NCBI RefSeq assembly: GCF_900176145.1
Contig: NZ_FWWY01000001.1
Coordinates: 2,725,444 to 2,789,443, forward strand
Reading direction: 5' to 3'
DNA length: 64,000 nt
From: Sulfobacillus thermosulfidooxidans DSM 9293
Lineage (GTDB): Bacteria > Bacillota > Sulfobacillia > Sulfobacillales > Sulfobacillaceae
The translations under genes were made by a program, and so were the position numbers. Positions 2,050-16,260 of this stretch are shown here, piece by piece; positions within the stretch are counted from its first letter, which is position 1, and the number at the start of each line of letters is the position of its first letter. The notes beneath the pieces are model-generated. The model was not told the origin of the DNA. It searched no databases and saw only the letters and a list, made by a program, of their open reading frames with translations.

Positions 2050-2541
2050 ATGCCCCATCTTGAAGACGAGCTCTATGAGGTTTCATTGGTTGTGAATAAT
2101 CAACAGCATATCCTAAAAGTGCCTGCAGAAGAACGTCTTCTTACCACATTACGATCCAGACTGCACATTTTTTCGGCACGTTATGGCTGTGGTACGGGAC
2201 ATTGTGGATCTTGTGTGGTGCTGGTCGATCATGAACCGGTGCCGAGTTGTCTTTTACTCACGATCCGTCAAAAAAACCGGGTGATTCAAACGGTCGAAGG
2301 ATTTGAAGATGACCTATTGATGAACCAGTTAATAGCGGCCTTTAGTGAAGAACATGCGGCTCAATGCGGATATTGCACCCCAGGACTCTTGCTCAGTGCC
2401 AAATACTTATTGGAGCGCAAACAGGAGTTAACAGAGTCTGATCTTCGGGCAGGTATTTCGTCACATATCTGTCGCTGCACGGGATATTACGCACCTTTAC
2501 GAGCCATTGCGAAAGTGAGAGACCATCATGCGCTGGATTGA
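2050..2541 (+). CDS. Molybdenum hydroxylase, [2Fe-2S] subunit (xanthine dehydrogenase/CoxS family)
   Basis: This 163-residue protein is the small electron-transfer subunit of a three-part molybdenum hydroxylase. It has the two expected [2Fe-2S] sites. The N-terminal plant-type ferredoxin site is the Cys cluster CGTGHCGSC plus a later Cys, around residues 46-68. The C-terminal helical site has CGYC near residue 112 and CRC near residue 141. Length matches the family (about 155-170). A GGAGATGA ribosome site lies 8 bases before the ATG. The gene overlaps the FAD subunit by 14 bases, so the two are probably translationally coupled. It passes electrons from the molybdenum site to FAD in the cytoplasm. 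Substrate cannot be told from this subunit. Confidence 0.93.
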   Translation: MPHLEDELYEVSLVVNNQQHILKVPAEERLLTTLRSRLHIFSARYGCGTGHCGSCVVLVDHEPVPSCLLLTIRQKNRVIQTVEGFEDDLLMNQLIAAFSEEHAAQCGYCTPGLLLSAKYLLERKQELTESDLRAGISSHICRCTGYYAPLRAIAKVRDHHALD

Positions 2542-3301
2542 GCCTTCGACTATCCAAGAAGTGCAAGCATGTTTGGCGCAACGTGTTCCTATCATAGGTG
2601 GTGGTACATGGCTTCTTCAAGACGGCCATAATCCTCGAGCCGTATGTGATTTGAGGGCATGGGCCGGGAGTGACGAGATTACACACGATGCACAAGGTTG
2701 GACTCTTGGCCCAAATGTTACGTTACATGCGTGGCATGAAGCATTAGGTGCTAACCATCAGATTTCCCAAATCTTGAGTCTGATAGGCTCGCCAGCATTT
2801 CGCAGGGTGGCTACGGTCATTGGTGTGATTGCCAATCCACAACCAGTGGCTGACTTATATCCTCTCTTGCGCTTGTTACAGTCTTCGGTGTTGTACATCG
2901 ACACGGCACATGACTTTATCCAGAACGACCTTGCATCTTGGCCAGAAAGCCTTCAAGAGCGTGCCATAGTGGGGGTGAAGGTGCCAGAGATTCCTAAGGC
3001 ATCCCGCGTTTATTTTCGTAAGTATGCAAAAGGCCGGATGACCCGCCCGTTAGTGAACTTCACGGTCATTATGAGTTCCCAAGATTCTCGTTGGGACATC
3101 ACGTTTATGGCCTCTGGATTGTCGGTATGGCCGCTTCAAGGAGCGGCTTGCGGTTCCCCGCAGGATATCGATTACGCGGTAAGGCATTGGATATTAGAAC
3201 GGCAGGACGTCAACCAGTTTTATCAGGCTCTAATCCTGAATATGTGGCAAGACATTTATCAACAGTGGTGGAATGAGAATAATAGGGGAATTGCATTATG
3301 A
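2528..3301 (+). CDS. Molybdenum hydroxylase, FAD-binding subunit (CoxM/XdhB-like)
   Basis: This 257-residue protein matches the FAD-binding medium subunit. It has the N-terminal IIGGGTWLL loop (about residues 22-30) and the GSPAFRRVATV segment followed by NPQPVADLYPLL (about 85-115), which corresponds to the family's second FAD motif. It is slightly short for the family (usually about 280-290). The conserved TIGGN-type motif reads VIGVIAN here, which may alter flavin binding. It would accept electrons from the [2Fe-2S] subunit and pass them to the final acceptor. The stop overlaps the ATG of the large subunit (ATGA). Confidence 0.85.
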   Translation: MRWIEPSTIQEVQACLAQRVPIIGGGTWLLQDGHNPRAVCDLRAWAGSDEITHDAQGWTLGPNVTLHAWHEALGANHQISQILSLIGSPAFRRVATVIGVIANPQPVADLYPLLRLLQSSVLYIDTAHDFIQNDLASWPESLQERAIVGVKVPEIPKASRVYFRKYAKGRMTRPLVNFTVIMSSQDSRWDITFMASGLSVWPLQGAACGSPQDIDYAVRHWILERQDVNQFYQALILNMWQDIYQQWWNENNRGIAL

Positions 3302-5445
3302 GAAAATGGGCTTTAAGCACTCGACCCCGGTTTGCTCCGGATATGTTGGATTTGGCCCCTGATGCCTTAGTGTGTGGCGTGATTGAAGCGGCTTCTGCCC
3401 CGTGCACGGCTCAAATACAAAATCTTGAGTCGTTAAGACAAATGCCGGGGGTTGTAGCCATTCTGACGGCGGATGATGTACCCGAACACCGGTTTACGAC
3501 GGCTGGACAGCCCGAGCCAGAGCCGTCTCCTTATGATATGAAGATTTTGAATACGGTGGTCCGTTATCCTGGAGAGCCCATCGCGCTCATTGCCGCCCAT
3601 TCGGAAAAAGATATCAAATCCGTACAACAATGTGCGGAGATTGATTATCAACCTGTTCATGGCCCCTTTCATGAATCCCATCCTTCGAATGTGATGAGCC
3701 AGTGGGATCTTCGCACTGAACCCTTGAGTGAGGTAGGGAACGAACAGTTTCGCACGACGGTTCGAGTGCCGCGGGTCAGCCACATGCAATTAGAACCCCA
3801 TGCCGCTTTGAGCTACTTTGATGAAGAAAATCGGCTGGTTATCGTGACCACAACCCAAGTTCCTTATCATGTCAGGCGCATTGTTGCCCGAGCTTTGGGA
3901 TGGCCTGTGTCGCGTATACTGGTTAAAGCAACAGATGTGGGTGGAGGATTTGGCGGCAAGCAAGAAGTGATTGTGGAGCCCTGGGTGGCATTATTGGCGG
4001 TGTGGACCAAAAAACCTGTCAAAATGATGTTAAACCGCCGGCAAGAGTTCACCATCACCCGCACACGGCATGCGGCCACGTTAAACGTGGAGAGCACGTG
4101 GAACAATACGACATTACAAAGCATTGATCTGAAAGCGGATGTAGAAACGGGTCCCTACGGATCGCACGGGCCCACCGTGGCCCATAATATGGGGCTAAAG
4201 TCTTTGCCCCTTTACCACGCAAAAAATTACCATTTCCATGGCCAAGTGCGTTATACCCCAGGACCTGTAGCGGGAGCATTTCGCGGCTACGGGGGACCTC
4301 AAGGAGCTATGGCCATCGAAACCCATATCAATCAAGTAGCCCATGCCAAAGGATTATCGTCCGCTGCCCTCCGCCATCTCATTCTGGCGAAGAAAGGGGA
4401 TGCTCTCGATATTTTTGCCCATGATGGCATGGTCAAACGCCAACATCACAATGACCTAGGGGAGCTGTTAGCGACGACCATGGCACGAATTCAATCCGGC
4501 CCGCCTGTGGATGAGAACGAGGGCATTGGTCTTGCCATGAGTATGCAAGCGAGTGGAGTACCAGGTCAAGAACTGGCTCAAGTTGTCATTCATGTCGATG
4601 AGGATGGCAGTTTGGTGGTGAAAACCGGTGCAATGGACATTGGACAGGGGTCTAAGGAAGCGCTCGCTCAGATTATTTATGAGGCATTGGACCTTCCAGT
4701 GGATTCTATCCCCATCTATTTTTCCATGGGGAAGACGTCCGATAACGGATTTGATTACGGGACTTATGCCTCGTCGACCACATATGTTACGGGCTATGCA
4801 GCGTTTAAGGCGGCCCGCATTGTGCGTCGTAAGATGCTAGCGTTGGCACGAAGAATTTCCCGGGCGTCATCAACCCCTTTAAGTCCTTTGGCGGCGTGTT
4901 GGTACTCTGTGGCGCACGCCAGTTTTTACGGTCCTTGGCGACATCCAATTATGGGTCAAGGCGTTGCGGTGCCGACGGATTCTCCCGCTCCCTTTGCCAT
5001 ATTAGCTGTCCGCCTCAAAGTTCATAACACGGGTCAATTAGATATTCAACAAATGGTCATGGGAATCGATGTGGGCAAGCCGATTAATCCCATGGGGCTT
5101 CGCGGACAAATTGAAGGCGCTGTCGTGCAAGGGCTCGGCTACGCGCTGTGCGAGGAATTGGAACTGGATGAACAAGATGCTTACGTCCGCAATGCGTCAC
5201 TTTTCGATTATCCATTGATTACTCCCCAGGATATTCCACCCTTAGAGATTATCATTGCTGATCATCAAGAACAGACGGTACCTTTTGGTGGCAAATCTGC
5301 GGGTGAGGTGGCCTTAGCCCCTGTTGCTCCGGCCATCGTGGACGGAATTTTTCAAGCTAAAGGCATCTGGATGACCGAGTTACCTATCACGATGGAACGT
5401 CTGTGGTATGCCTTACAAGCGCAACAAGAAACCATAGTCCGTTAG
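3298..5445 (+). CDS. Molybdenum hydroxylase, large molybdopterin-binding subunit
   Basis: This 715-residue catalytic subunit belongs to the xanthine dehydrogenase/aldehyde oxidase/CO dehydrogenase family. Visible family motifs are QLEPHAA (about 164-170), GGGFGGKQE (215-223), GAFRGYGGPQGA (about 327-338), GAMDIGQGSKEA and, near the C-terminus, GKSAGEVALAP. Glu670 in the last motif sits where the family's general-base glutamate lies. The active-site loop lacks the AYRCSFR selenocysteine/cysteine loop signature of CO dehydrogenases, so CO oxidation is unlikely. Neighbouring hydrolases for cyclic ureides suggest it hydroxylates a purine or pyrimidine ring, for example uracil to barbiturate. That substrate is inference. 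No XdhC-type maturation gene is in the cluster. Confidence 0.9.
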   Translation: MRKWALSTRPRFAPDMLDLAPDALVCGVIEAASAPCTAQIQNLESLRQMPGVVAILTADDVPEHRFTTAGQPEPEPSPYDMKILNTVVRYPGEPIALIAAHSEKDIKSVQQCAEIDYQPVHGPFHESHPSNVMSQWDLRTEPLSEVGNEQFRTTVRVPRVSHMQLEPHAALSYFDEENRLVIVTTTQVPYHVRRIVARALGWPVSRILVKATDVGGGFGGKQEVIVEPWVALLAVWTKKPVKMMLNRRQEFTITRTRHAATLNVESTWNNTTLQSIDLKADVETGPYGSHGPTVAHNMGLKSLPLYHAKNYHFHGQVRYTPGPVAGAFRGYGGPQGAMAIETHINQVAHAKGLSSAALRHLILAKKGDALDIFAHDGMVKRQHHNDLGELLATTMARIQSGPPVDENEGIGLAMSMQASGVPGQELAQVVIHVDEDGSLVVKTGAMDIGQGSKEALAQIIYEALDLPVDSIPIYFSMGKTSDNGFDYGTYASSTTYVTGYAAFKAARIVRRKMLALARRISRASSTPLSPLAACWYSVAHASFYGPWRHPIMGQGVAVPTDSPAPFAILAVRLKVHNTGQLDIQQMVMGIDVGKPINPMGLRGQIEGAVVQGLGYALCEELELDEQDAYVRNASLFDYPLITPQDIPPLEIIIADHQEQTVPFGGKSAGEVALAPVAPAIVDGIFQAKGIWMTELPITMERLWYALQAQQETIVR

Positions 5446-5566
5446 GTCAGTTAAGAGAGCTGGCTGACCCATATCGTGGTGTCATGATGAATACCATTGA
5501 ATGTGCATATCCCTAACAAGGCTTTGCCCCACACGGAACTTTTTCCTATGAAGGAGCGATGATGAA

Positions 5567-6130
5567 ATGACTAGCACAGACGAAATTTTGACGATACCAG
5601 TAAAAGATGTCACAGAAGAAGCAGTGGCCCCTTACGGCATGTTACTCGGCGAAGGGGTACATCGTCCGGGACTTCCCATCCCTTTTTATCAAGGTAGCGT
5701 GGAGGAAGGAGCTAACTTAGATTTTGTCTGCCGTGGGAAGCCGGTCATTCGTACAGCGCGCATTTCACGGCGTGATACCGAAGTACTCTGGTTGGAATAT
5801 CACACCATTTTGACGCAGGTTTTTATTGGACTCGGTTCCGCACCTTTTGTTATGGTGCTCGGGCGCCCCGAAGAGAATGCTAAAGTTCCCAATTTAGCCC
5901 AAGTTGAGGCATTTAAATTTCCACCGGGTCACGGTATCATGCTCTGGCAACGGGTATGGCATGATTTTCCGATGGCGATTCATCATCCTGTGACCATTTT
6001 TACCATGAATTCGGAGGAAGTGGTGGAAGCCTTAGCATCACAGCCCGTTCCAGCGGATATGAACCGAGGCGATGTCTATAAAGTGCATGTCAAAACTCAT
6101 ACCGGCAAACATTTGCGGGTAGATATGTGA
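5567..6130 (+). CDS. Ureidoglycolate lyase (AllA) family protein
   Basis: This 187-residue protein resembles the cupin-like ureidoglycolate lyase family, which splits ureidoglycolate into urea and glyoxylate. The N-terminal VAPYGMLLGEGVHRPG, the central LEYHTILTQVFIGLG and the C-terminal AFKFPPGHGIMLWQRVWHDF align in order with the family pattern (PFGxxI, LErHpxxsQaFiPL, AFxxxxGqGvxYxxGvWH). The normally ErH motif is EYH, and the overall match is loose, so the substrate may differ. In this cluster it might act on the ureido acid released by the ring-opening enzyme. The start has AAGGAGCGAT 7-11 bases upstream. Its stop overlaps the start of the next gene. Confidence 0.7.
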   Translation: MTSTDEILTIPVKDVTEEAVAPYGMLLGEGVHRPGLPIPFYQGSVEEGANLDFVCRGKPVIRTARISRRDTEVLWLEYHTILTQVFIGLGSAPFVMVLGRPEENAKVPNLAQVEAFKFPPGHGIMLWQRVWHDFPMAIHHPVTIFTMNSEEVVEALASQPVPADMNRGDVYKVHVKTHTGKHLRVDM

Positions 6131-7197
6131 TGGAAACACGAATCTTTACCGGTTTTATGAAACATCCCAGCGATTTTTCTGAGCTAGACGCGGCAATTTC
6201 CCGTGGTGAAATCGATCCATTTCGCATTGTCGCCATTCTCGGAAAAACCGAAGGGAACGGCGGCCGGAATGATTTCAGTCGCGACTTGGCCGTCGAGAAG
6301 AGTCGTCAGGTTTTGGCAACCCATTTGCAACAAGATCCAGCAGTCATAGAAGACCGTGTGCTGCTGTCATTTTCCGGCGGCACCGAAGGCGTTACCACAC
6401 CCCATTACCGGGTCTTTGAAACGCGAGGAACGTTTCCTTCCGCACCATTATATGAGTCCAGGCTGGCGATTGGGCGGGGGAGGACGCGCCAGTTTCTTCC
6501 GGAGGAAGTGGGTACGATGACGATGGTCGAAGAAACCGCTCAAACGATCCGGAGGATTTTGGAGCAAGCCCGAATTGATCCACACGATGTGCATTTTGTT
6601 CATGTGAAAGGTGCCATTCCATACGAATGGCCACCGAAATCACCTCGCAACTCCATGGCCTATTCCCGGGGTGCTTCGGCTTTAGGGGTGGCTCTGGCAC
6701 TTGGCGAAGTTAACCAACATGATTTGAATGACGATATGATTCTTCAGGATTATGCGTTGTATAGCCGGTGTGCCAGCACCTCCAGCAAACCGGGATTGTC
6801 CTACTCCGATATTATGGTGCTCGGAAATTCACCGTGGTGGAACGGGAATTTGGTCATTACACACACCGTGATGCAGGATATATTAGACGCCCAATCGGTG
6901 ATCTCATTGTTCGAGAGCTTCGGGATTTCTAGCTCTCAGCTCTATAAAGAGGCTATTGCCCAGCGTATTCATGGCGTCTTTGCTAAGGCTGAGGCGGATC
7001 CACGTCAAAGTGTTCGGGGATACCGTCATACCATGCTATCGGATGATGACATTGATGATACTCGTTATGCCCGCTGCGTCGTGAGTTCCATTTTGGCTGC
7101 GATCACCGGCACTCCCGCTGTGTATGTATCAACGCGTGCTGAACATCATGGGCCACTGGGCGGTGGACCGGTGGCCGTGATTCTCTCGATATCCTAA
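6127..7197 (+). CDS. Ring-opening amidohydrolase (barbiturase / cyanuric acid hydrolase family)
   Basis: This 356-residue enzyme belongs to the small AtzD/TrzD/barbiturase family, which opens cyclic ureides by hydrolysis. Three repeated domains are visible, each with the expected Lys and Ser. Domain A has GKTEGNGGRNDFSR (Lys40) and SGGTEG (Ser83). Domain B has HVKGAIP (Lys161) and RGASALGVALALGE (Ser184). Domain C has FAKAEADP (Lys287) and VYVSTRAEHHGPLGGGPVAV (Ser335). Length is normal (about 355-370). In domain C the usual SGGAEHQGP reads STRAEHHGP, which could mark altered specificity. Start is GTG 6127 overlapping the previous stop, or ATG 6130. Barbiturate and cyanurate activity cannot be separated by eye. 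Confidence 0.88.
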   Translation: MMETRIFTGFMKHPSDFSELDAAISRGEIDPFRIVAILGKTEGNGGRNDFSRDLAVEKSRQVLATHLQQDPAVIEDRVLLSFSGGTEGVTTPHYRVFETRGTFPSAPLYESRLAIGRGRTRQFLPEEVGTMTMVEETAQTIRRILEQARIDPHDVHFVHVKGAIPYEWPPKSPRNSMAYSRGASALGVALALGEVNQHDLNDDMILQDYALYSRCASTSSKPGLSYSDIMVLGNSPWWNGNLVITHTVMQDILDAQSVISLFESFGISSSQLYKEAIAQRIHGVFAKAEADPRQSVRGYRHTMLSDDDIDDTRYARCVVSSILAAITGTPAVYVSTRAEHHGPLGGGPVAVILSIS

Positions 7198-7441
7198 GAT
7201 GTCATAACGTTTCCAAAAGGGATCACGCAACAAGCCCATACAGATGATTTAATGTTTTTTGTGGCGAATAATCGTTTTGATCTAAACGAGGTATTGCCGT
7301 TGGATCCGTGAAACGTGAAAACGCCTTAGGATGTGAATGGACACGTACTCCGTCCCGATATCGTTGGCTCGGCGATATTCTTAAGATTTCAAGAGATAGG
7401 GTGGAACTTTGCAGGAATCCGGCAAAAGGGGCGAATGAAGG

Positions 7442-8635
7442 ATGATTCATGATACCTGGCAAGCATTTTTTGATACGACATGCACATTAGAACCTGAAGG
7501 GCAGGGCGTGTTAAGCGGCACAACTTTTGCCGCCAAAGAGGCGTTTGACGTGAAAGGTTTTGTCACCTCAGGTGGCAATCCCGATTGGTACCGAACACAT
7601 TCTAAAGCGTCCGAGACAGCGCGGGCGATTACCCAGCTTGTGCAGGCAGGATCACGTCTGGTAGGCAAGACCCACACGGACGAATTAATGTATGGATTAA
7701 ATGGTGAAAATGTCCATTATGGCACTCCGGTTAATCCCAAGGCCCCTGATCGCATTCCGGGAGGATCTTCGAGTGGTTCGGCATCCGCAGTGGCGGGTAA
7801 ATTAGTGGACTTTGCGATTGGAACGGATACGGGGGGATCGGTACGGATTCCAGCGAGTTACACGGGAATTTACGGATTTCGTCCAACCATCGGGAGAATT
7901 TCTCTTGAAGGCGTTATCCCTCTTTCGCAAACATTTGATACGGTGGGATGTTTAGCCAGAGATCCGTCACTGCTAGAAAACGTCTCCAGTGTCTTATTAG
8001 ACCACTACAAAATCCCATCTGGGCATAGCTTTTCACGCGTGGTTGTGGCATCTGACGCCATATCTCGCGTGGACCAAGAATTGGTGCCGGAAGTGGAAGC
8101 AAAAATCGCACATATCGCTTCGAGTTTTTTGACGGTCCAGCATGAAGTGATTGCGGAACCGGGGCTTGAGACATGGAGTCAAGCCTTTCGCATTATTCAA
8201 GGTTATGATATATGGCAGAATTTTGGAACCTGGATAACCGAGACCAAGCCGCATTTTGGCCCTGGATTCCACGAACGGTTTTATTGGACCCGTACGATCA
8301 CGCGAGAAGAACGCGATAAGTGGGCTCATAAGCAGAAGGAATGGCGCGAAGAACTGTGGAGCCGACTGCGCCAAGATACCCTGATTGTCCTGCCGACAGC
8401 ACCGGGAGTGGCCCCTTTGAAAAATACTCCTCTAAATATTCTTAATCCCTTTCGCGACCGGGTTTTGCAACTCACGTGTATTGCGGGGTTAGGGGGATTG
8501 CCTCAGGTCTCTATGCCTCTGTTGACGATTCAAGGCATTCCTTTTGGCATTTCGGTGATTGCGGGTCCCGGCATGGACGAAGAATTATTGGCCTGGGTCA
8601 GAAATTGGGTCATAGGGGAGGGCATAGAATGTTAA
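7442..8635 (+). CDS. Amidase signature family hydrolase (AtzE/GatA-like)
   Basis: This 397-residue protein has the amidase-signature core. Lys32 lies in TFAAKEAFDVKG, the Gly/Ser-rich loop PGGSSSGSASAVA spans 106-118 with the cis-Ser near 109, and the nucleophile Ser133 lies in GTDTGGSVRIPAS. It is shorter than typical members (450-500), mainly in the C-terminal half. Family members hydrolyse amides including 1-carboxybiuret (AtzE) and acyl-ureas. Behind a ring-opening enzyme it is a good candidate for cleaving the linear ureide product, e.g. ureidomalonate to urea and malonate (inferred). No GatB/GatC is nearby, so it is not the tRNA amidotransferase subunit. It follows a 244-base gap. Confidence 0.88.
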   Translation: MIHDTWQAFFDTTCTLEPEGQGVLSGTTFAAKEAFDVKGFVTSGGNPDWYRTHSKASETARAITQLVQAGSRLVGKTHTDELMYGLNGENVHYGTPVNPKAPDRIPGGSSSGSASAVAGKLVDFAIGTDTGGSVRIPASYTGIYGFRPTIGRISLEGVIPLSQTFDTVGCLARDPSLLENVSSVLLDHYKIPSGHSFSRVVVASDAISRVDQELVPEVEAKIAHIASSFLTVQHEVIAEPGLETWSQAFRIIQGYDIWQNFGTWITETKPHFGPGFHERFYWTRTITREERDKWAHKQKEWREELWSRLRQDTLIVLPTAPGVAPLKNTPLNILNPFRDRVLQLTCIAGLGGLPQVSMPLLTIQGIPFGISVIAGPGMDEELLAWVRNWVIGEGIEC

Positions 8636-9972
8636 CACGCATTCGGAATACCACGGCAGTGACCATGAATGCATCTCGCGATATCGTATCCCCGACCGAC
8701 CTGTGGATAGAAGACCGGAAGATTGTGGCAATAGGACCCTATGGCCATCGTCCTGACCGTGTGATTGATGGGACGGATATGGTCGCGATTCCTGGGCTCG
8801 TGCAGCCGCACATTCATTTGTGTCAAACCTTATTTCGTGGCTTGGCTGATGATTTGTCCTTGTTGGATTGGCTGGAACAACGCATCTGGCCCCTTGAAGC
8901 GGCTTTAGACGAGGATGCTATGCGGGTCTCGGCTCAATTGGGTATTGCTGAACTGCTGGCGGGGGGCACGACAACCATTTTAGATATGGGGTCAGTAAAT
9001 CATACGGAACACATTTTGAACACGATGTTACAGATGGGTATTCGCGGATATTCCGGAAAATGTCTAATGGACCGTCCCAATAAATTTTTGATGCAAAGTA
9101 AAGATGATGCGATGCAAGAAAGTTATGACTTGGCTCACCGGTGGCATGGACAGGATCAAGGACGGGTGCGTTATGCACCCGCGCCCCGGTTTACATTATC
9201 AGCTAGCGATGCGTTGTTTGAAGAGGCCCGCTCACTGGCCGATGCATTCCATACGGTGTTGCATACCCATGGGGCAGAAACGCGCGATGAAATTACTGAA
9301 GGGATAAAACTTCACCGTCGCCCTCCTGTTGCCCATTTATTCGACCTGCAAATTCTTGCCCCATCTGCGGTCATTGCGCATGGCGTGTGGATGAATGCCG
9401 ATGAAGAAAATATGGTGGCCACATCCAACGCTAAACTCGTTCATTGCCCGTCATCCAATCTAAAACTCGGCTCAGGATTTGCTCCGACGGTGCGGTGGCG
9501 CCAAAAGGGTTTGATCTTTGGGATTGCCGCTGACGGAGCACCGTGTAACAATCTACTGGATGGATTTCAAGAAATGCGGACGGCAGCGCTTTTAGCGAAG
9601 CCAGTGTTTGGACCCACCTATTTGTCTGCCCCTGAGGTTTTTGCACATGCCACGATTGAAGGTGCCCGGGTCTTGGGATTGGAAGATGAAATTGGGTCGC
9701 TCGAAGTTGGCAAGCAGGCCGATATTGTTCTCCTTAATTTTCGTGGGCCGCATCATCAATTATGGGATATGACACCGATTTACAGTCAGCTCGTCTATCA
9801 AACGCATGCGAGCGATGTGTATCTTACCATGGTGGCGGGTCAAATTCTTTATGAAAACGGGCGATACACCACCTTGAACCTTGACGAAGTAAAGAGAACG
9901 GCTAGGGAGGCACTGCTCCGTGTGTTACGGCGTGCTGAAATGGAACCCTTATCATCATGGATGACGACGTAG
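8629..9972 (+). CDS. Amidohydrolase-superfamily deaminase (SsnA/AtzA/TrzN/MtaD-like)
   Basis: This 447-residue metal-dependent hydrolase belongs to the nucleobase/triazine deaminase group. Metal ligands are visible as His61 and His63 (QPHIHLCQ), a later His in LHTHGAE, a His in IAHGVWMNADE and an Asp in GIAADGAPCNN. The stretch LFRGLADDLSLLDWLEQRIWPLE is characteristic of the MTA/SAH deaminase, 8-oxoguanine deaminase and atrazine hydrolase branch. The ATG lies inside the amidase stop (ATGTTAA), so translation is coupled. It may supply a keto-substrate to the pathway by deaminating an amino-pyrimidine, purine or triazine. Exact substrate is unknown. An upstream in-frame start at 8476 would lie inside the amidase and is rejected. 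Confidence 0.88.
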   Translation: MLTRIRNTTAVTMNASRDIVSPTDLWIEDRKIVAIGPYGHRPDRVIDGTDMVAIPGLVQPHIHLCQTLFRGLADDLSLLDWLEQRIWPLEAALDEDAMRVSAQLGIAELLAGGTTTILDMGSVNHTEHILNTMLQMGIRGYSGKCLMDRPNKFLMQSKDDAMQESYDLAHRWHGQDQGRVRYAPAPRFTLSASDALFEEARSLADAFHTVLHTHGAETRDEITEGIKLHRRPPVAHLFDLQILAPSAVIAHGVWMNADEENMVATSNAKLVHCPSSNLKLGSGFAPTVRWRQKGLIFGIAADGAPCNNLLDGFQEMRTAALLAKPVFGPTYLSAPEVFAHATIEGARVLGLEDEIGSLEVGKQADIVLLNFRGPHHQLWDMTPIYSQLVYQTHASDVYLTMVAGQILYENGRYTTLNLDEVKRTAREALLRVLRRAEMEPLSSWMTT

Positions 9973-10137
9973 CGTAGTACTTGTGGTCCATGTCGTGACG
10001 TATGATTTGGGCCATCTGTACTTAATATGATGACGATCAGAAAACAGATGACAAATTTCTGATGGGATACACCGAGATCAGACTTCAAATATTGCCGAAT
10101 CCGGCGAGATATGTTAAAGTGCATTCAATTGTTAAAA

Positions 10138-10249
10138 CCTCTTATCGAGAGCGGCGGAGGGACTGGCCCAATGAAGCCCGGCAACCCCCAGATGACTATT
10201 GTCTGGTTGGTGCTAATTCCTGAAAGACCATGTCTTTCAAGATGAGAGG
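10138..10249 (+). promoter_or_regulatory. SAM-I (S-box) riboswitch
   Basis: The canonical S-box core is present: CTTATCGAGAGCGG, then GGAGGGACTGGCCC and ATGAAGCCCGGCAACC. P1 pairs CCTCTTATC (10138-10146) with GATGAGAGG (10241-10249), with one G-U. P3 forms over CCAGATGACTATTGTCTGG. P4 is a perfect TGAAAGAC/GTCTTTCA hairpin. The 3' P1 strand GAGAGGG can instead pair with the downstream CCCTCC, giving the standard anti-terminator/terminator switch. SAM binding should therefore end transcription before the downstream PLP enzyme gene. Confidence 0.96.
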
Positions 10250-10261
10250 GAACGGGTATCG

Positions 10262-10292
10262 CCACCCCTCCCTCGATGGGGGGATTTTTTTA
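10262..10292 (+). terminator. SAM-riboswitch intrinsic terminator
   Basis: The segment CCACCCCTCC, loop CTCGA, then TGGGGGGA followed by seven T forms a GC-rich hairpin (with G-U pairing) and U tract directly after the aptamer. The ATG at 10276 lies within this hairpin, so it cannot be the real start of the next gene. Confidence 0.85.
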
Positions 10293-10314
10293 TGAACATG
10301 AGGAGGCGTTTACC

Positions 10315-11538
10315 TTGAGCCAACAATGGCGAAGGAATACATTATTAGTTCATGCGGGAACCCCTGCATTAGGCGACATCGAGCCGACCGCGTTACCCAT
10401 TTTCCCGTCGACCAGTTATCGTTCTCGCTCAGCTCAAATGTTAGATCAACTGATGGGAGGAGAAATTGAGGGCTTTTCCTATGCTCGTCATGCTAATCCC
10501 AATGTGGAAGCTTTAGTTGATGCGATGAAGCAACTTGAACGGGCCGAGACAGGAATTGCCACCGCTTCGGGAATGGCGGCCATTGATGCTGCTATGTATG
10601 CCACTCATGTTGAACCGGGGGATACCATCTTAGTCAGTCAAGATGTGTATGGCGCGTCACTCAATCTTTTAGGTACCGTTTGGGGTGAAATGGGTGTAAA
10701 GGTGGTCATTGAAGACTTTACCGATCTCACTCATTTTCGGCAACTTCTTGAGGTCCACAAGCCGCGAACGGTTTTATTGGAAACATTATCGAATCCTTTG
10801 TTAAAAGTGTTAGATATTCCTCAAATTGTGAGCTTAGTTCATGGCGTAGGCGCTCAACTAATTGTGGACAACACATTTACCACACCGCTCACAATGCGAC
10901 CTTTGGAATGGGGCGCTGATCTCGTGGTGCATAGTGCAACCAAATATTTGGGTGGCCACGGTGATGCCATGGGCGGTATTGTGCTAGGCCGAGACGAATA
11001 TCATAATCGCCTTCATCAATATTTAAAGTTGCGTGGAGCGGTTTTAGGCCCTTTTGAAGCCTGGTTGATACACCGGGGCCTCCGCACACTCGGTGTCCGC
11101 TTTGAACGGCAGTGTCACAATGCCGCCAAATTGGCTCGGATTTTGCAGGAATCCCAGATATTTAGCCGGGTCTTCTATCCCTTGTTTGCGGACCACCCGA
11201 CGCATGCTGTGGCTGAACGACTATTGCCAGCCGACTTGGGCGGGGCCGTGGTTACACTGGATTTAGGTGGCGGAAAAGAGGATGTGTTTCGGTTTTTGGA
11301 CCATCTTCAATTAGTGGCTTCGGCGACGACGGTTGGAGATATCTACACGTTATGTCTCTATCCTTTAATTGCTTCCCACCGGAATCAAACACCGGAAGAA
11401 CGAGCGAAAATGGGGATTACAGACAGTATGGTCCGGATCTCCGTCGGACTAGAAGATCCGGAAGATATCGCGTTAGATTTAATTCAAGCCGCATCGGCAG
11501 TGCGTATTTCCGATTCGTTGGTCATACAAAAAGACTAG
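10315..11538 (+). CDS. Cys/Met-metabolism PLP enzyme (cystathionine gamma-synthase/gamma-lyase or sulfhydrylase type)
   Basis: This 407-residue fold-type I PLP enzyme has the family's PLP-lysine motif [16 protein letters not shown] (Lys near 202), the N-terminal [10 protein letters not shown] substrate loop and the phosphate-binding [10 protein letters not shown]. Regulation by a SAM-I riboswitch points to methionine or cysteine synthesis, so cystathionine gamma-synthase or O-acetylhomoserine sulfhydrylase is favoured over catabolic methionine gamma-lyase. The sequence alone does not settle this. The start is TTG 10315, preceded by AGGAGG 8 bases upstream. The in-frame ATG 10276 falls in the riboswitch terminator and lacks a ribosome site. 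The stop lies within a palindromic terminator shared with the convergent suf operon. Confidence 0.87.
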
Positions 11539-11558
11539 GCGAGATTTTCGCCTAGTCT
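11532..11558. terminator. Bidirectional terminator between PLP enzyme and suf operon
   Basis: A perfect inverted repeat AGACTAGGCGA / TCGCCTAGTCT flanks a five-base loop. Each arm contains GACTAG, so the TAG stop of the plus-strand gene (11536-11538) and that of the minus-strand Rieske gene (11552-11554) both lie inside the same hairpin. T-runs are short (TTTT in the loop region only), so termination strength is uncertain. Confidence 0.75.
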
Positions 11559-11869
11559 CGTTCTGTGTCAATGAAAATATCATGTCCTTCGACTTTGACG
11601 GGATATGTCCGAATGGGAGCATAGGCAGGAAAATGCTTGGCTTCTCCCGTTCGGACATCAAATTGCCCGCCATGACGGGGACAATGAATCAGATAACCTT
11701 TCAAATCGCCTTCAGCCAAAGAGGCTTCCGCATGTGAACACAAATCATCGGTCGCGAAATATTGGTCTTTGACCCGATATAGAGCAACATCTTCGTTGTC
11801 TAATACCACCAACAAGGGATTTTGTTCTTTAAGTTCTTCAACCGATGCGACTCGAACCCACTTAGCCAA
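11552..11869 (-). CDS. Rieske-type [2Fe-2S] protein at the end of the suf operon
   Basis: This small protein of about 105 residues has the Rieske cluster motif: CSH, then CPRHGGQFD about 17 residues later. It resembles NirD/ferredoxin-type Rieske proteins of 100-115 residues. It has no membrane segment, so it is likely a soluble electron carrier. It is the last gene of sufCDSUB, almost touching sufB, and probably supports or uses the Suf pathway. The start is uncertain: TTG 11869 gives a family-like LAKWVRVASVEEL N-terminus just past the sufB stop. TTG 11878 or 11896 would overlap sufB. AAGGAG within the sufB end can serve as ribosome site. Confidence 0.85.
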   Translation of the reverse strand: MAKWVRVASVEELKEQNPLLVVLDNEDVALYRVKDQYFATDDLCSHAEASLAEGDLKGYLIHCPRHGGQFDVRTGEAKHFPAYAPIRTYPVKVEGHDIFIDTERD

Positions 11870-11870
11870 A

Positions 11871-13271
11871 TTAGCCAATTGCTCCTTCCATCTCAAACTT
11901 AATGAGACGATTCATTTCGACTGCAAATTCCATGGGCAGTTCGCGTGTGAAGGGTTCAATAAAACCAAGGATAATTAAGCGCGTGGCTTCCTCTTCGCTT
12001 AAACCCCGAGCTTGTAAATAGAACAGTTGTTCTTCACTAACTTTGGTGACCGTGGCTTCATGTTCCATTTCGGCCTGGCTGGTTTCCACTTCACTATAGG
12101 GCAGGGTATCATTAACCGATTCGCTGTCCATCAGTAACGTGTCACATTTGACATTAGACTTGGCACCGATAGCGGTTTTATCAAAATGCACCAGGCCCCG
12201 GTAAGTCGTTTTGCCCCCATGTTGGCTAATGGACTTGGAAACAATCGTGGAGGTAGTATTGGGGGCCATGTGAATCATTTTGGCACCCGTATCCTGATGC
12301 TGGTTACGACCCGCCACGGCAATAGACAAAACACTGCCCTTGGCACCTTCTCCCATTAAATACACGGAAGGGTATTTCATCGTGGCCTTGGATCCGATAT
12401 TGCCATCAACCCACTCCATGGTCGCGTTTCTATAGGCGACGGCGCGTTTTGTTACCAGGTTATAAACATTCGGCGCCCAGTTTTGAACCGTGGTATAGCG
12501 CATCCGTGCGCCATCCTTGACGATAATTTCTACGACAGCCGAGTGCAATGATTCCGAATTGTAGCTAGGAGCGGTACAGCCCTCAACGTAATGTCCAAAG
12601 GAATCTTCATCGGCGATGATTAAGGTGCGTTCAAACTGGCCCATGTTTTCCGAATTAATGCGGAAATATGCCTGGAGCGGAATATCGCTTTTGACCCCTT
12701 TCGGGATATAGACGAACGAGCCGCCGGACCAAACAGCGGAGTTAAGCGCGGCAAATTTGTTGTCTTCGGGGGGGATGACCGTACCAAAATATTCGCGCAC
12801 GAGATCGGGGTATTCCCGCAATGCCGAATCTGTGTCGAGGAAGATAATCCCTTTTTCTTCCAAATCCTTGCGAATGGAGTGATAAACTACTTCCGACTCA
12901 TACTGAGCCGACACACCCGCTAAGAATTTGCGTTCGGCTTCAGGAATGCCTAAGCGTTCGAATGTGTCTTTAATGGCTTGGGGCACTTCTTCCCATGTCC
13001 GGCCCTGATTTTCCGATGGTTTGACGTAATAAATAATATCATCGAAATTGAGTTTGCTGAGATCAGCTCCCCAATTTTGCATCGGCTTTTTGTAAAACAC
13101 ATCCAATGCATGTAGACGGAAATCTAGCATCCACTTTGGTTCTTGTTTGATCCGGGATATTTCTTCAACCGTTTCACGGCTTAAACCCCGCGCAAACTTA
13201 AGAACCCCAACATCTCCGTCGTTAAACCCATATTGATATTCTTCGTTGACAATTGTGGGTTTACTAGCCAT
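11871..13271 (-). CDS. sufB: Fe-S cluster assembly scaffold SufB
   Basis: This 466-residue protein is a full-length SufB, the scaffold partner of SufC and SufD for building Fe-S clusters. Family stretches include [44 protein letters not shown] and the C-terminal [21 protein letters not shown]. The start ATG 13271 follows GGAGGGACTTTC. An extension to 13304 has no ribosome site. It lies between sufU and the Rieske gene on the minus strand, in the standard Firmicutes sufCDSUB order. Confidence 0.97.
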
Positions 13272-13331
13272 GAAAGTCCCTCCTTTGTGTTTGTTGGTGC
13301 ACAACGTTTTGTGTTCTAAAATAACGAGACC

Positions 13332-13754
13332 TTATTCACTCGGTTCTGCCATAGCCTTCTCAAATGCATTGTGTGCTAAAGTGGCGCATTTGACACGGCT
13401 CGGAAATTGGGAAACACCGTGAAGAGCTTCCAAATCCCCTAAGGGAATCTGAGAAGTGCCTCCGGTCACAAAATTTTTAAAATTGGACGTCAATGCTAAG
13501 GCTTCTTCTATGGTTTTGCCTTTAATAGCCTCGGTCATCATGGATGCCGATGCCATACTAATAGAGCAGCCTTGACCACTAAAACGGATATCTTGAATTT
13601 TTCCATCTTGAAGCAACAGTTCTAATTGAATTTGATCGCCACAGGTGGGATTGAGTAGACCCACAACTTTCGTGGGATGATCCAAATGGCCATAGTTTCG
13701 TGGCGACTGATTATGATCCAAGATGGTTTCCCGATAAATTTCATCTAAGTTCAT
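13332..13754 (-). CDS. sufU: SufU-type sulfur transfer / scaffold protein
   Basis: This 140-residue IscU-fold protein is of the Firmicutes SufU type. In Bacillus, SufU takes persulfide sulfur from SufS. Metal-site residues are visible: NPTCGDQ (Cys and Asp near 40), SGQGCSIS (Cys near 63) and VKCATL (Cys near 125). The longer spacer between the second and third Cys fits SufU rather than IscU. Its ATG overlaps the sufS stop as ATGA, giving coupled translation with its partner enzyme. Confidence 0.95.
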   Translation of the reverse strand: MNLDEIYRETILDHNQSPRNYGHLDHPTKVVGLLNPTCGDQIQLELLLQDGKIQDIRFSGQGCSISMASASMMTEAIKGKTIEEALALTSNFKNFVTGGTSQIPLGDLEALHGVSQFPSRVKCATLAHNAFEKAMAEPSE

Positions 13755-14974
13755 CGCTTAAAGTACCTCTTTGTCGCCTCAATGGCATCGACCAATTCGT
13801 CGATATCGCGATCACTATTGTACAGATAAAAGCTCGCGCGTGCCGTGGAACTGACATCAAGCCAATGCATAAGAGGTTGCGCACAATGATGGCCGGCGCG
13901 GATGGCAATACCACGCGAATCAAATACCTGGGCGATGTCATGAGGGTGGATTCCAACAATGTTAAAGGCCACCAGACTAGTGCGGGGATATTCTGGCCCA
14001 TAGACTACGACATCACTCAAATTCGCGAGTCTCCTATAGGCCTCCTCCGCAAGCATCCGACTGTGTTCTTCAATACGCTCCATACCGATGGTTGATAAAT
14101 AGTCTATGGCAGTTCCTAGACCAATCGCCCCGGCAATATGGGGAGTTCCCCCTTCGAATTTAGCGGGCAATTCTGCCCAAGTGGCGTCGTCTCGGTCGAC
14201 ATAGGCAATCATCTCTCCGCCAAACATTACTGGATCTGCGGCTTCGAGTAACGCTTCTTTACCCCAAAGCACGCCAATACCTGTTGGTCCTAACATCTTA
14301 TGTCCGGAAAAAGCCAAAAAATCAATTCCTAACGCCTGAACGTCCGTGGGCCCATGAGGAACCGATTGGGCCCCGTCAACCACCATAATTGCCCCGACTT
14401 GATGAGCCAGAACCGCAACCTCGGCTATGGGATTAATCGTACCGAGGACATTTGAGACGGCGGACAATGTCACAATTCGGGTACGTTCGGTTATCTGTTG
14501 TTTAACGGCTTCAACGGTGATTGTGCCATTAGGCTGCAATTCGATAAATTTCAGCTTGGCACCGACACGTTTGGCTAACTGTTGCCATGGGATAAGATTA
14601 GAATGGTGTTCCATGGGAGAAAGGACGATTTCATCGCCAGCTTCTAAGAATTTATCTCCCCATGCCCGGGCAATCGTATTCAGGCTTTCGGTGGTGCCAC
14701 GCGTAAAAATTACTTCACGAGGCGATTTGGCATGGATAAAACGCGCAATCTTCTCCCGGGCTTCTTCCATTGCCGTCGTGGCCTCTTCAGCCAGGGTGTG
14801 TACGCTACGCAAAACATTGGCATTGGTCGTTTCATAATATTGCACCAACCGGTCAATGACGCTTTGGGGCTTTTGTGAGGTTGCAGCCGAGTCCAAATAG
14901 ATCAACCGGTGTCCATTAATTTGCCGTTTTAAAATGGGAAAATCCACGGTAATATCGACCAATGCCGTGATCAT
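13751..14974 (-). CDS. sufS: Cysteine desulfurase SufS
   Basis: This 407-residue group II cysteine desulfurase is PLP-dependent and produces persulfide sulfur for cluster assembly. Visible features are VVDGAQSVPH, the PLP lysine in AFSGHKMLGPTGIGVLWG and the catalytic Cys in the RAGHHCAQPLMHWL loop. The start is ATG 14974, which overlaps the sufD stop as ATGA and has AAAGGAAG upstream. The longer in-frame version from 15004 lies inside sufD and is not preferred. Confidence 0.96.
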   Translation of the reverse strand: MITALVDITVDFPILKRQINGHRLIYLDSAATSQKPQSVIDRLVQYYETTNANVLRSVHTLAEEATTAMEEAREKIARFIHAKSPREVIFTRGTTESLNTIARAWGDKFLEAGDEIVLSPMEHHSNLIPWQQLAKRVGAKLKFIELQPNGTITVEAVKQQITERTRIVTLSAVSNVLGTINPIAEVAVLAHQVGAIMVVDGAQSVPHGPTDVQALGIDFLAFSGHKMLGPTGIGVLWGKEALLEAADPVMFGGEMIAYVDRDDATWAELPAKFEGGTPHIAGAIGLGTAIDYLSTIGMERIEEHSRMLAEEAYRRLANLSDVVVYGPEYPRTSLVAFNIVGIHPHDIAQVFDSRGIAIRAGHHCAQPLMHWLDVSSTARASFYLYNSDRDIDELVDAIEATKRYFKR

Positions 14975-16260
14975 GCGTCCAACTTCCTTTCTACAGATTC
15001 CCATACCGAGTCCCGTAGAATAGGACCGGGTAACGCGTCTACGACGGGCGCCAAGAATCCATGAACATATAACCGGATGGCCTCGCGTTCTGATAACCCA
15101 CGCGCCATCAGATAGAACAGCGCGATTTGATCAATGGGACCCGCACTGGCCGAATGGGCGGCGTAGACATCGTTATCATTTATCAGCAAGGATGGCACCG
15201 CGTCAGCGCGGGACTCATCGGACAACATCAAAGTCTGCTCTTTTTGCCGGCCGTCAGCCTTGATGGCTCCATGTTCGATGTTCGTGATGCCATGAAATGC
15301 ACTGCGCCCTTGATCTTTCATGACGCCCTTGGCGATAATCCGGCTCGTGGTATAAGGAGCCGAATGAACAATCTCCGTATCAAAATCTTGTCGTTGATGA
15401 CCAGATCCGAAAAACACCATGGTGTGGGTACTCTGGGCCCCTTGTTGTATCAAATGCGTTTCATCGCTGGCTATGGTAAGATGGCCCCCGAATTCGCCGA
15501 TGCTCCAGTTCACTGCTGCGTCTTGGTAAACTTGTGCAGAGCGGCGCATAAACACTTCGGCGTTGTTAGAGAGATTTTGCACAGCACCATAATGCACCTT
15601 GGCATCTTCTTTAGCCAAAATCTCAACGACGCTTGAGAACAAGGTTTTGTCCTCAAATTCATTGGAAATATAGCGCTCAATGACAGTAATTTGACTTCCC
15701 GGCTCTGCCACAATCAGGGTGCGCGGGAAAAGGCTGTGCACGTCATGACTAAACTGGCCATAATGAAGAACCAATAAGGGTTCCGCCATTTGGATATGCG
15801 CTGGGACTTTAATATAAAGTCCTTGATCCCAGAGGGCTCCATTTAAGGCTTCCGCTCGACTCATCGGAGACGTAACAATCTGTCCTAAGACTATGCTAAG
15901 CTCTTTTTCATATCTTGCGGCAGCCTCTTGCAAAGGCATGACCACCACACCTTGTGATGCCCAATCTTGGGGTACACTGCTCGCGACAAGACGGTCATTC
16001 GCAAAGGCAACATAAGCGGGTGAAACCATCGATTGTAAGATATCGCGAGGCACCGTGACGCTCGGAAACACTGTGGTTAAGGGGATTTGATCCAATTGTC
16101 GTTCTCTGAGCGGTGTTTTCTCCCGTTTTGGCCACGAGTAATCGGACAGATTGTCTAAATAGGATAAACGCCAATTACGAAGCCAAAGAGGCTCTTGTTG
16201 ACGGTCCAAAGTGAGAGAGCGAATATCTTCAAGCCATTTCACATCGGTCGACGTATTCAT
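14971..16260 (-). CDS. sufD: Fe-S cluster assembly protein SufD
   Basis: This 429-residue SufB paralogue forms the SufBC2D complex. The C-terminal half carries the SufBD core (YGAVQNLSNNAEVFMRRSAQ, GHQRQDFDTEIVHSAPYTTSRI) and ends with LFYLMARGLSEREAIRLYVHGFL, matching the SufB C-terminus. The N-terminal helical part is less conserved, as usual. The ATG at 16260 follows an AGGAGGCTCCC ribosome site, 10 bases after sufC. Confidence 0.95.
   Translation of the reverse strand: MNTSTDVKWLEDIRSLTLDRQQEPLWLRNWRLSYLDNLSDYSWPKREKTPLRERQLDQIPLTTVFPSVTVPRDILQSMVSPAYVAFANDRLVASSVPQDWASQGVVVMPLQEAAARYEKELSIVLGQIVTSPMSRAEALNGALWDQGLYIKVPAHIQMAEPLLVLHYGQFSHDVHSLFPRTLIVAEPGSQITVIERYISNEFEDKTLFSSVVEILAKEDAKVHYGAVQNLSNNAEVFMRRSAQVYQDAAVNWSIGEFGGHLTIASDETHLIQQGAQSTHTMVFFGSGHQRQDFDTEIVHSAPYTTSRIIAKGVMKDQGRSAFHGITNIEHGAIKADGRQKEQTLMLSDESRADAVPSLLINDNDVYAAHSASAGPIDQIALFYLMARGLSEREAIRLYVHGFLAPVVDALPGPILRDSVWESVERKLDA

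Follow-up and report, generated by a model that had tools for sequence, protein, structure and literature searches.

Hydrolases of the Toblerone fold open six-membered cyclic ureides into acyl-urea acids, and the ureidoglycolate lyase AllA expels urea from a carbon that carries both a ureido group and a hydroxyl. We analysed a window of 64,000 nucleotides from Sulfobacillus thermosulfidooxidans DSM 9293 (contig NZ_FWWY01000001.1; positions below are those of the window), in which the gene of a Toblerone-fold ring-opening amidohydrolase follows that of an AllA-like protein, within a seven-gene cluster. The closest described relatives of the ring-opener are the Group IV proteins, whose signature was defined by Peat et al. 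in 2013, when members were found in Sulfobacillus and Acidithiobacillus only; these authors gave no substrate, judged the group unlike the cyanuric acid hydrolases (CAHs) and suggested a role tied to iron/sulphur oxidation (PMC3758960). The window enzyme has the same exact signature, and its host genus is one of the two that define the group. That paper reported no partner or gene context, whereas here the clade is wider, reaching Acidobacteriota- and Melainabacteria-type contigs, and it comes with an AllA-like partner and a purine context, all of which are new.

Several known systems resemble parts of the cluster. AllA shares with the AllA-like protein a common fold and the E.H, Q, WH and VT residues, but it has 160 residues against 187 and lacks the N- and C-terminal segments that are fixed in the window protein, and no AllB, AllC or AllD gene is present in the neighbourhood of the window's AllA-like gene. 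The oxidative uracil pathway (Soong et al., cited in PMC3758960) uses the same trio of hydroxylase, Toblerone hydrolase and amidase-type enzyme; however, by signature and phylogeny the window ring-opener is no barbiturase, and the window adds AllA-like and deaminase genes. The cyanuric acid pathway atzDGEHF has its likeness in Acidithiobacillus caldus, where a Toblerone hydrolase is likewise found with AtzG, AtzE and AtzH homologues, but the binding loops of Group IV differ, and its clusters lack an allophanate hydrolase and are set among purine genes. Finally, the Klebsiella-type HPX pathway with its hpxWXYZ end shares with the Acidithiobacillus clusters a xanthine dehydrogenase (XDH), a DUF4089 (HpxX-like) protein, AtzE/HpxY, HpxZ and a gamma-glutamyltransferase (GGT)/HpxW-like protein; those clusters show no HpxO above cut-off, no uricase and no OHCU decarboxylase, and AllA-like and Group IV genes occupy their place.

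Group IV ring-opener and AllA-like partner

An earlier note on this DNA had described seven genes in one direction and named their enzyme classes. All seven + strand open reading frames (2050-9972; host genome G000, 3.86 Mb) were confirmed, and profile matches agree with those classes: a three-subunit molybdenum hydroxylase, an AllA-like protein (PF04115), a PF09663 hydrolase, an amidase (PF01425) and an amidohydrolase (PF01979). The genes are tightly packed, with overlapping or near-abutting stop/start pairs at 2541/2528, 3301/3298, 6130/6127 and 8635/8629. The synteny search proposed in the note retrieved the identical seven-gene order from five other genomes (G003, G005, G006, G008 and G011), with amino-acid identities of 31-98%; most subunits are at or above approximately 50%, and the flavin adenine dinucleotide (FAD) subunit goes down to 31%. 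Among these family-level relatives, G011 is presumably Sulfobacillus acidophilus-like, a species listed by Peat et al. for this enzyme group. Ratios of non-synonymous to synonymous substitution rates (Ka/Ks) relative to the nearest relative, G003, range from 0.03 to 0.29, indicating purifying selection on all seven genes, and the lowest value is that of the AllA-like gene.

The ring-opener belongs to the Toblerone-fold cyclic amide hydrolases (PF09663), as evidenced from its Ser-Lys pairs (K40/S83, K161/S219 and K287/S335), its substrate-binding residues Arg52, Arg181 and Arg316, and its fold. The predicted model (pLDDT 90) matches family structures over the full length, with TM scores of 0.84-0.93. 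Its residues correspond to the Group IV signature (Arg195, Met/Thr321, Arg325, Thr345 and Arg346 in AtzD numbering). The barbiturase (Group VI) signature Asn195/His321/Lys325/Val345/(Ser,Ala)346 is absent, the residues of the ring-opener being R181, T312, R316, T336 and R337. Of the CAH (Groups I-III) signature, Arg195, Thr321 and Arg325 are present, but Thr336 and Arg337 take the places of Gly345 and Gly346. Three group-specific residues, K221, T336 and R337 (G235K, G345T and G346R in AtzD numbering), are fixed in 16/16 Group IV members and found in 0/90 other family members. Because AtzD position 345 touches the substrate in solved structures, the ligand of Group IV enzymes should differ from cyanurate and from plain barbiturate. 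The Thr345 side chain, isosteric with the barbiturase Val and capable of hydrogen bonding, would suit a substituted C5.

In a maximum-likelihood tree that included one verified barbiturase (5hwe) and four CAHs of verified function (AtzD, TrzD and the Azorhizobium and Moorella enzymes), Group IV forms a single clade with 100/100 support, recovered in all 200 bootstrap trees and containing none of the five verified enzymes. An approximately unbiased (AU) test found a topology with Group IV and the barbiturase on one side of the tree to be compatible with the data (p-AU 0.37). On signature and tree, we rejected both a barbiturase and a CAH identity for the ring-opener. The earlier note had proposed a uracil to barbiturate to ureidomalonate route and had listed phylogenetic placement among its checks; the ring-opener, devoid of the barbiturase signature, falls outside the verified barbiturase (100/100) and the verified CAHs, the very position that the note had taken to speak against its proposal. 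The ring-opener scores 378.8 bits with the NCBIfam model NF052395 (cyanuric acid amidohydrolase; cut-off 360), which is weak evidence since this model does not separate Group IV. Annotations should thus be read with caution, as the NCBI model labels Group IV proteins above cut-off despite their differing binding loops.

The AllA-like protein matches PF04115 (43.7 bits, cut-off 23), and a Foldseek comparison of its predicted fold with AllA structures gave matches at E-values between 7e-9 and 4e-8. Its best score with the AllA equivalog models, 33.6 bits, is far short of the cut-off of 260, and judging from the alignment it is a subfamily of its own, with fixed segments not present in AllA.

The ring-opener and the AllA-like protein are inherited together. 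On the Sulfobacillus side, both were found in 7/81 relatives and neither in 74/81; in the genus Acidithiobacillus, both are present in 11/17 genomes and neither in 6/17. Pooling the two lineages (98 genomes), the pair is complete in 18, wholly missing in 80 and never represented by a single member. The two genes are also adjacent at 15/16 Group IV loci examined, compared with 0/90 other family loci, and the 16 loci span Bacillota, Acidithiobacillus/Acidiferrobacter-type, Acidobacteriota and Melainabacteria-type contigs. Fisher tests gave p = 5e-20 and 2e-17 for these associations, values that ignore shared ancestry and are descriptive only. The exception is G002, whose cluster lacks the hydrolase gene (L139, C90) and whose Group IV copy is found elsewhere (L027, C179, 9499-10569). 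In the tree this copy groups with another sublineage, and the original gene was apparently displaced by it. From its distribution, the AllA-like gene is the predicted obligate partner of the Group IV ring-opener, which bears out the suspicion of the earlier note that it signals a variant pathway. Now that Group IV, a puzzle since 2013, has a partner and a likely place in metabolism, its candidate substrates can be narrowed to a short list.

On the A. caldus plasmid p1 (L125, 12247-13994), a copy of ISAtc1 immediately precedes the AllA-like gene, which has lost its first ~30 codons; this copy of the gene may be disrupted.

A possible purine route

Purine-related genes surround the pair in Acidithiobacillus, with AtzE/HpxZ/oxamate-hydrolase-type genes following. 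In Acidithiobacillus ferrianus (L047), it is found amid genes for an NCS1 permease, a guanine deaminase-like protein, an adenosine deaminase, a NUP-family protein (a nucleoside permease/phosphorylase-type protein), XDH, XdhC, AtzE and a gamma-glutamyltransferase-type protein. Adenosine deaminase, AtzE and HpxZ are above model cut-off among Acidithiobacillus neighbours. HpxZ is present in a sister strain of A. ferrianus, parts of HpxWXYZ occur in L047/L048, and A. caldus plasmid p1 carries a complete DUF4089-AtzE-HpxZ-GGT set, i.e. homologues of HpxX, HpxY, HpxZ and HpxW together. The window's own cluster is devoid of hpx-type oxalurate-branch genes. We searched ten genomes carrying the pair for uricase (PF01014), the membrane uricase PuuD (PF06181) and OHCU decarboxylase (PF09349) and found none, while control genomes were positive; the urate hydroxylase HpxO gave no match above cut-off in the same ten genomes.

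The XDH of the Acidithiobacillus clusters keeps Glu802, Arg880, Phe914, Phe1009 and Thr1010 (bovine numbering) in 4/4 sequences; these residues we take to have the roles generally ascribed to them in xanthine oxidase. The molybdenum subunit encoded in the window has Q, N, Y and V at Glu802, Arg880, Phe914 and Phe1009, as do its five orthologues. A canonical XDH identity was therefore rejected on the missing signature residues. E. coli XdhA likewise lacks the bovine signature (Q, A, Y and T at the four sites), and we retained the label E. coli XdhA-like.

Our preferred reading, held tentatively and with a little less than even confidence, is that the cluster lets a uricase-free organism scavenge nitrogen from a purine-derived compound. 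It builds on features read from sequence, namely gene content, synteny, the co-inheritance of lyase and hydrolase, active-site residues and the absence of the urate enzymes searched for, from which we infer the substrate class. A purine-derived ureide is the simplest account because both conserved partners get used. Of the alternatives that the earlier note had left open, purine is the best fit to the neighbourhoods of the relatives, and cyanurate is a poor match for the active site. For Acidithiobacillus the link to purines is strong; for the window, where the hydroxylase and deaminase score under the cut-offs of named equivalogs, it is indirect.

Urate is oxidised in acid to alloxan and urea, and AtzE/HpxZ/HpxW-type enzymes remove nitrogen from acyl-ureas. 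In the route that we envisage, the deaminase would convert an aminopurine to an oxopurine, which the molybdenum hydroxylase would oxidise towards xanthine or urate. Further oxidation, speculatively by another enzyme or enzyme-free in the acidic, ferric-rich setting, and hydrolysis would then yield a six-membered cyclic ureide with a ureido group. By analogy with the action of AllA on ureidoglycolate, the AllA-like lyase would release urea from the ureido-bearing carbon, and the Group IV hydrolase would cleave the remaining C5-oxygenated, barbiturate-like ring to an acyl-urea acid; alloxan and dialurate are fitting candidates for this ring. The amidase would finally strip the ureido nitrogen, a step for which Acidithiobacillus would use the AtzG/AtzE/HpxZ/HpxW-type set instead. 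A candidate sequence engaging both lyase and hydrolase leads from 5-hydroxy-5-ureidobarbiturate via alloxan to the acyl-urea acid; the exact ring compounds are conjectural, and the order of the two enzymes is speculative. More doubtful, but worth considering, is the broader proposal of an undescribed uricase-free purine route in which AllA-like lyase and Group IV hydrolase dismantle an oxidised, barbiturate-type purine derivative, a route favoured by acid, distributed across several phyla of acidophiles and in part carried on plasmids. It could explain the purine nitrogen supply of uricase-free bioleaching acidophiles.

Several observations weigh against a purine route. We found no gene for the oxidation of urate that the route needs. 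The purine neighbours were seen in Acidithiobacillus, and support from Sulfobacillaceae is weaker, consisting of an NCS1 permease gene and, by the cluster of G011, an adenine deaminase gene. The Blastocatellia/Obscuribacterales copies of the pair have no XDH gene nearby but genes for a PanE-like reductase and a hydrolase/thiamine pyrophosphate (TPP)-enzyme fusion instead. The weakest link of the proposal is the window's molybdenum hydroxylase, devoid of the XDH signature: as Gln, Asn and Tyr replace Glu802, Arg880 and Phe914, it may oxidise another compound. We found no paper tying Sulfobacillus or Acidithiobacillus to this purine context, in a literature search that did not extend to the 2012 and 2017 papers on the family and might have missed a later Group IV assay.

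Alternative substrates

Xanthine amidohydrolase chemistry occurs in clostridia. In a hydrolytic route of that type, the Group IV enzyme would act directly on xanthine or urate, opening the pyrimidinedione ring, and the AllA-like protein would take urea from a ureido-imidazole carboxylate, so that no oxidation beyond XDH is needed. This would account for the missing uricase and oxidase, and formamidase-family genes are present near two clusters. We nevertheless consider it unlikely, because the Gly-to-Thr and Gly-to-Arg replacements add bulk to a single-ring pocket, in which a bicyclic purine would be hard to seat, and because the oxamate/oxalurate-type downstream genes of Acidithiobacillus are not predicted by it.

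Alternatively, the substrate might be a carboxylated or other non-purine cyclic imide, whose carboxylate would be bound by the new Lys and Arg residues, the purine neighbours being coincidental. The invariance of K221 and R337 (16/16) is consistent with this idea, as are the deposition of the family structure 5hy0 as an 'orotic acid hydrolase', the non-XDH-like molybdenum subunit of the window and the Blastocatellia/Obscuribacterales copies without purine genes nearby. In Acidithiobacillus and Acidiferrobacter-type genomes, the close association with purine genes argues against coincidence and makes such a substrate unlikely. Both this reading and the hydrolytic one are nonetheless serious rivals of the preferred route.

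We find it quite improbable that Group IV enzymes are CAHs acting on cyanurate or another triazine, feeding AtzG/AtzE/AtzH or the biuret amidohydrolase BiuH, with the deaminase preparing triazines. The NF052395 score, the identity of 41-46% to CAH-type relatives, the D-(XdhC)-G-E-H gene order of A. caldus and the occurrence of BiuH in two clusters (G002 and L067, orthologues above the NCBIfam cut-off) would agree with it. However, the Gly345/Gly346 pair is replaced by Thr/Arg in all 16 members, the clade stands apart from the AtzD, TrzD, Azorhizobium and Moorella enzymes, the AllA-like gene and the purine genes are left without a role, and the judgement of Peat et al. went against a CA hydrolase (PMC3758960).

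An oxidative pyrimidine route, in which the molybdenum hydroxylase converts uracil to barbiturate, the ring-opener is a barbiturase and the amidase a ureidomalonase, has a matching enzyme type for each step, an amidase-family neighbour resembling that of the known route and the AU test on its side, but it is very improbable given the missing barbiturase signature, the position of 5hwe outside the Group IV clade, an AllA-like partner left without a role and purine rather than uracil genes in the relatives' clusters.

Cluster genes and related loci

The features of the cluster are listed in Table 1. The gap 7198-7441, between the ring-opener and amidase genes, contains a decayed eighth gene of the fumarylacetoacetate-hydrolase family, of which approximately 75 last codons are kept, in interrupted form (residues 215-289 of 290 align). 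It is intact, and in the same place, in four relatives, G005, G006, G008 and G011. The gene of the AtzD-like ring-opener may start at ATG 6130, in a TGATG overlap with the stop codon of the AllA-like gene. For the deaminase gene, the most likely start is ATG 8629, preceded by a GGGGAGG site, and not GTG 8476 of the longest open reading frame. The amidase is above the NF006169 (PRK08310) cut-off of 391, and the deaminase is slightly under that of PRK07228 (522); the latter enzyme probably acts on an aminopurine-like compound.

Table 1. Features of the cluster, in window coordinates
Feature	Position	Strand	Evidence
[2Fe-2S] subunit, molybdenum hydroxylase (XdhC/CoxS type)	2050..2541	+	PF01799/PF00111; eight Cys ligands; synteny
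FAD subunit, molybdenum hydroxylase	2528..3301	+	PF00941
Mo-cofactor subunit, E. coli XdhA-like	3298..5445	+	PF02738/PF20256; NF043082 403 bits, below cut-off 780; residues
AllA-like lyase (putative), distinct subfamily of the ureidoglycolate lyase fold, extra C-terminal segment	5567..6130	+	PF04115; alignment; predicted fold
Group IV Toblerone-fold ring-opening amidohydrolase	6127..7197	+	PF09663 405 bits; residues; tree; fold
Fumarylacetoacetate-hydrolase-family gene remnant, C-terminal part only	7222..7436	+	tblastn E 1e-8; PF01557 in L031
Amidase-signature hydrolase, PRK08310 family	7442..8635	+	NF006169 464.9 bits; Lys-Ser-Ser motifs
AtzA/TrzN-type metal-dependent deaminase	8629..9972	+	PF01979; PRK07228 498 bits; metal-ligand motifs

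Accessory genes beside the clusters of individual relatives encode NCS1-type permeases, a formamidase-family protein, RidA and an adenine deaminase (G011). The host genome harbours a second heterocycle-type cluster (L162, G000:C1:1204061-1212243; 8061-16243), with genes for an NCS1 permease (59% identical to one adjoining the cluster of G011), a cyclic amidohydrolase-like protein, a TPP enzyme and molybdenum hydroxylase subunits. At L046 (3591-8903), L049 (166-5494) and L050 (169-3268), the pair is flanked by genes for a PanE-like 2-oxoacid reductase and an alpha/beta hydrolase-TPP enzyme fusion, with no molybdenum hydroxylase gene nearby; L046 is titled Proteobacteria yet clusters with the other two.

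Elsewhere in the family, a Moorella-like genome (L033, G092, 6358-14513) and enterobacterial plasmids (L126, K. aerogenes plasmid NZ_CP044215, 4713-13099), one of them conjugative and IncHI2A, carry CAH genes of the Moorella type. Their neighbours code for an NCS2 permease, FdrA, DUF1116 and DUF2877 proteins (homologues of the oxamate transcarbamylase AllFGH) and carbamate kinase, possibly forming a pathway by which cyanurate yields carbamoyl phosphate and ATP. We also identified PF09663 paralogues without the Lys and Ser residues of domains 1 and 3 that keep the Ser-Lys pair of domain 2 (L091, 2794-3897 and 4317-5378; L040-L042), one such domain-2-only paralogue being in tandem with a CAH-type copy.

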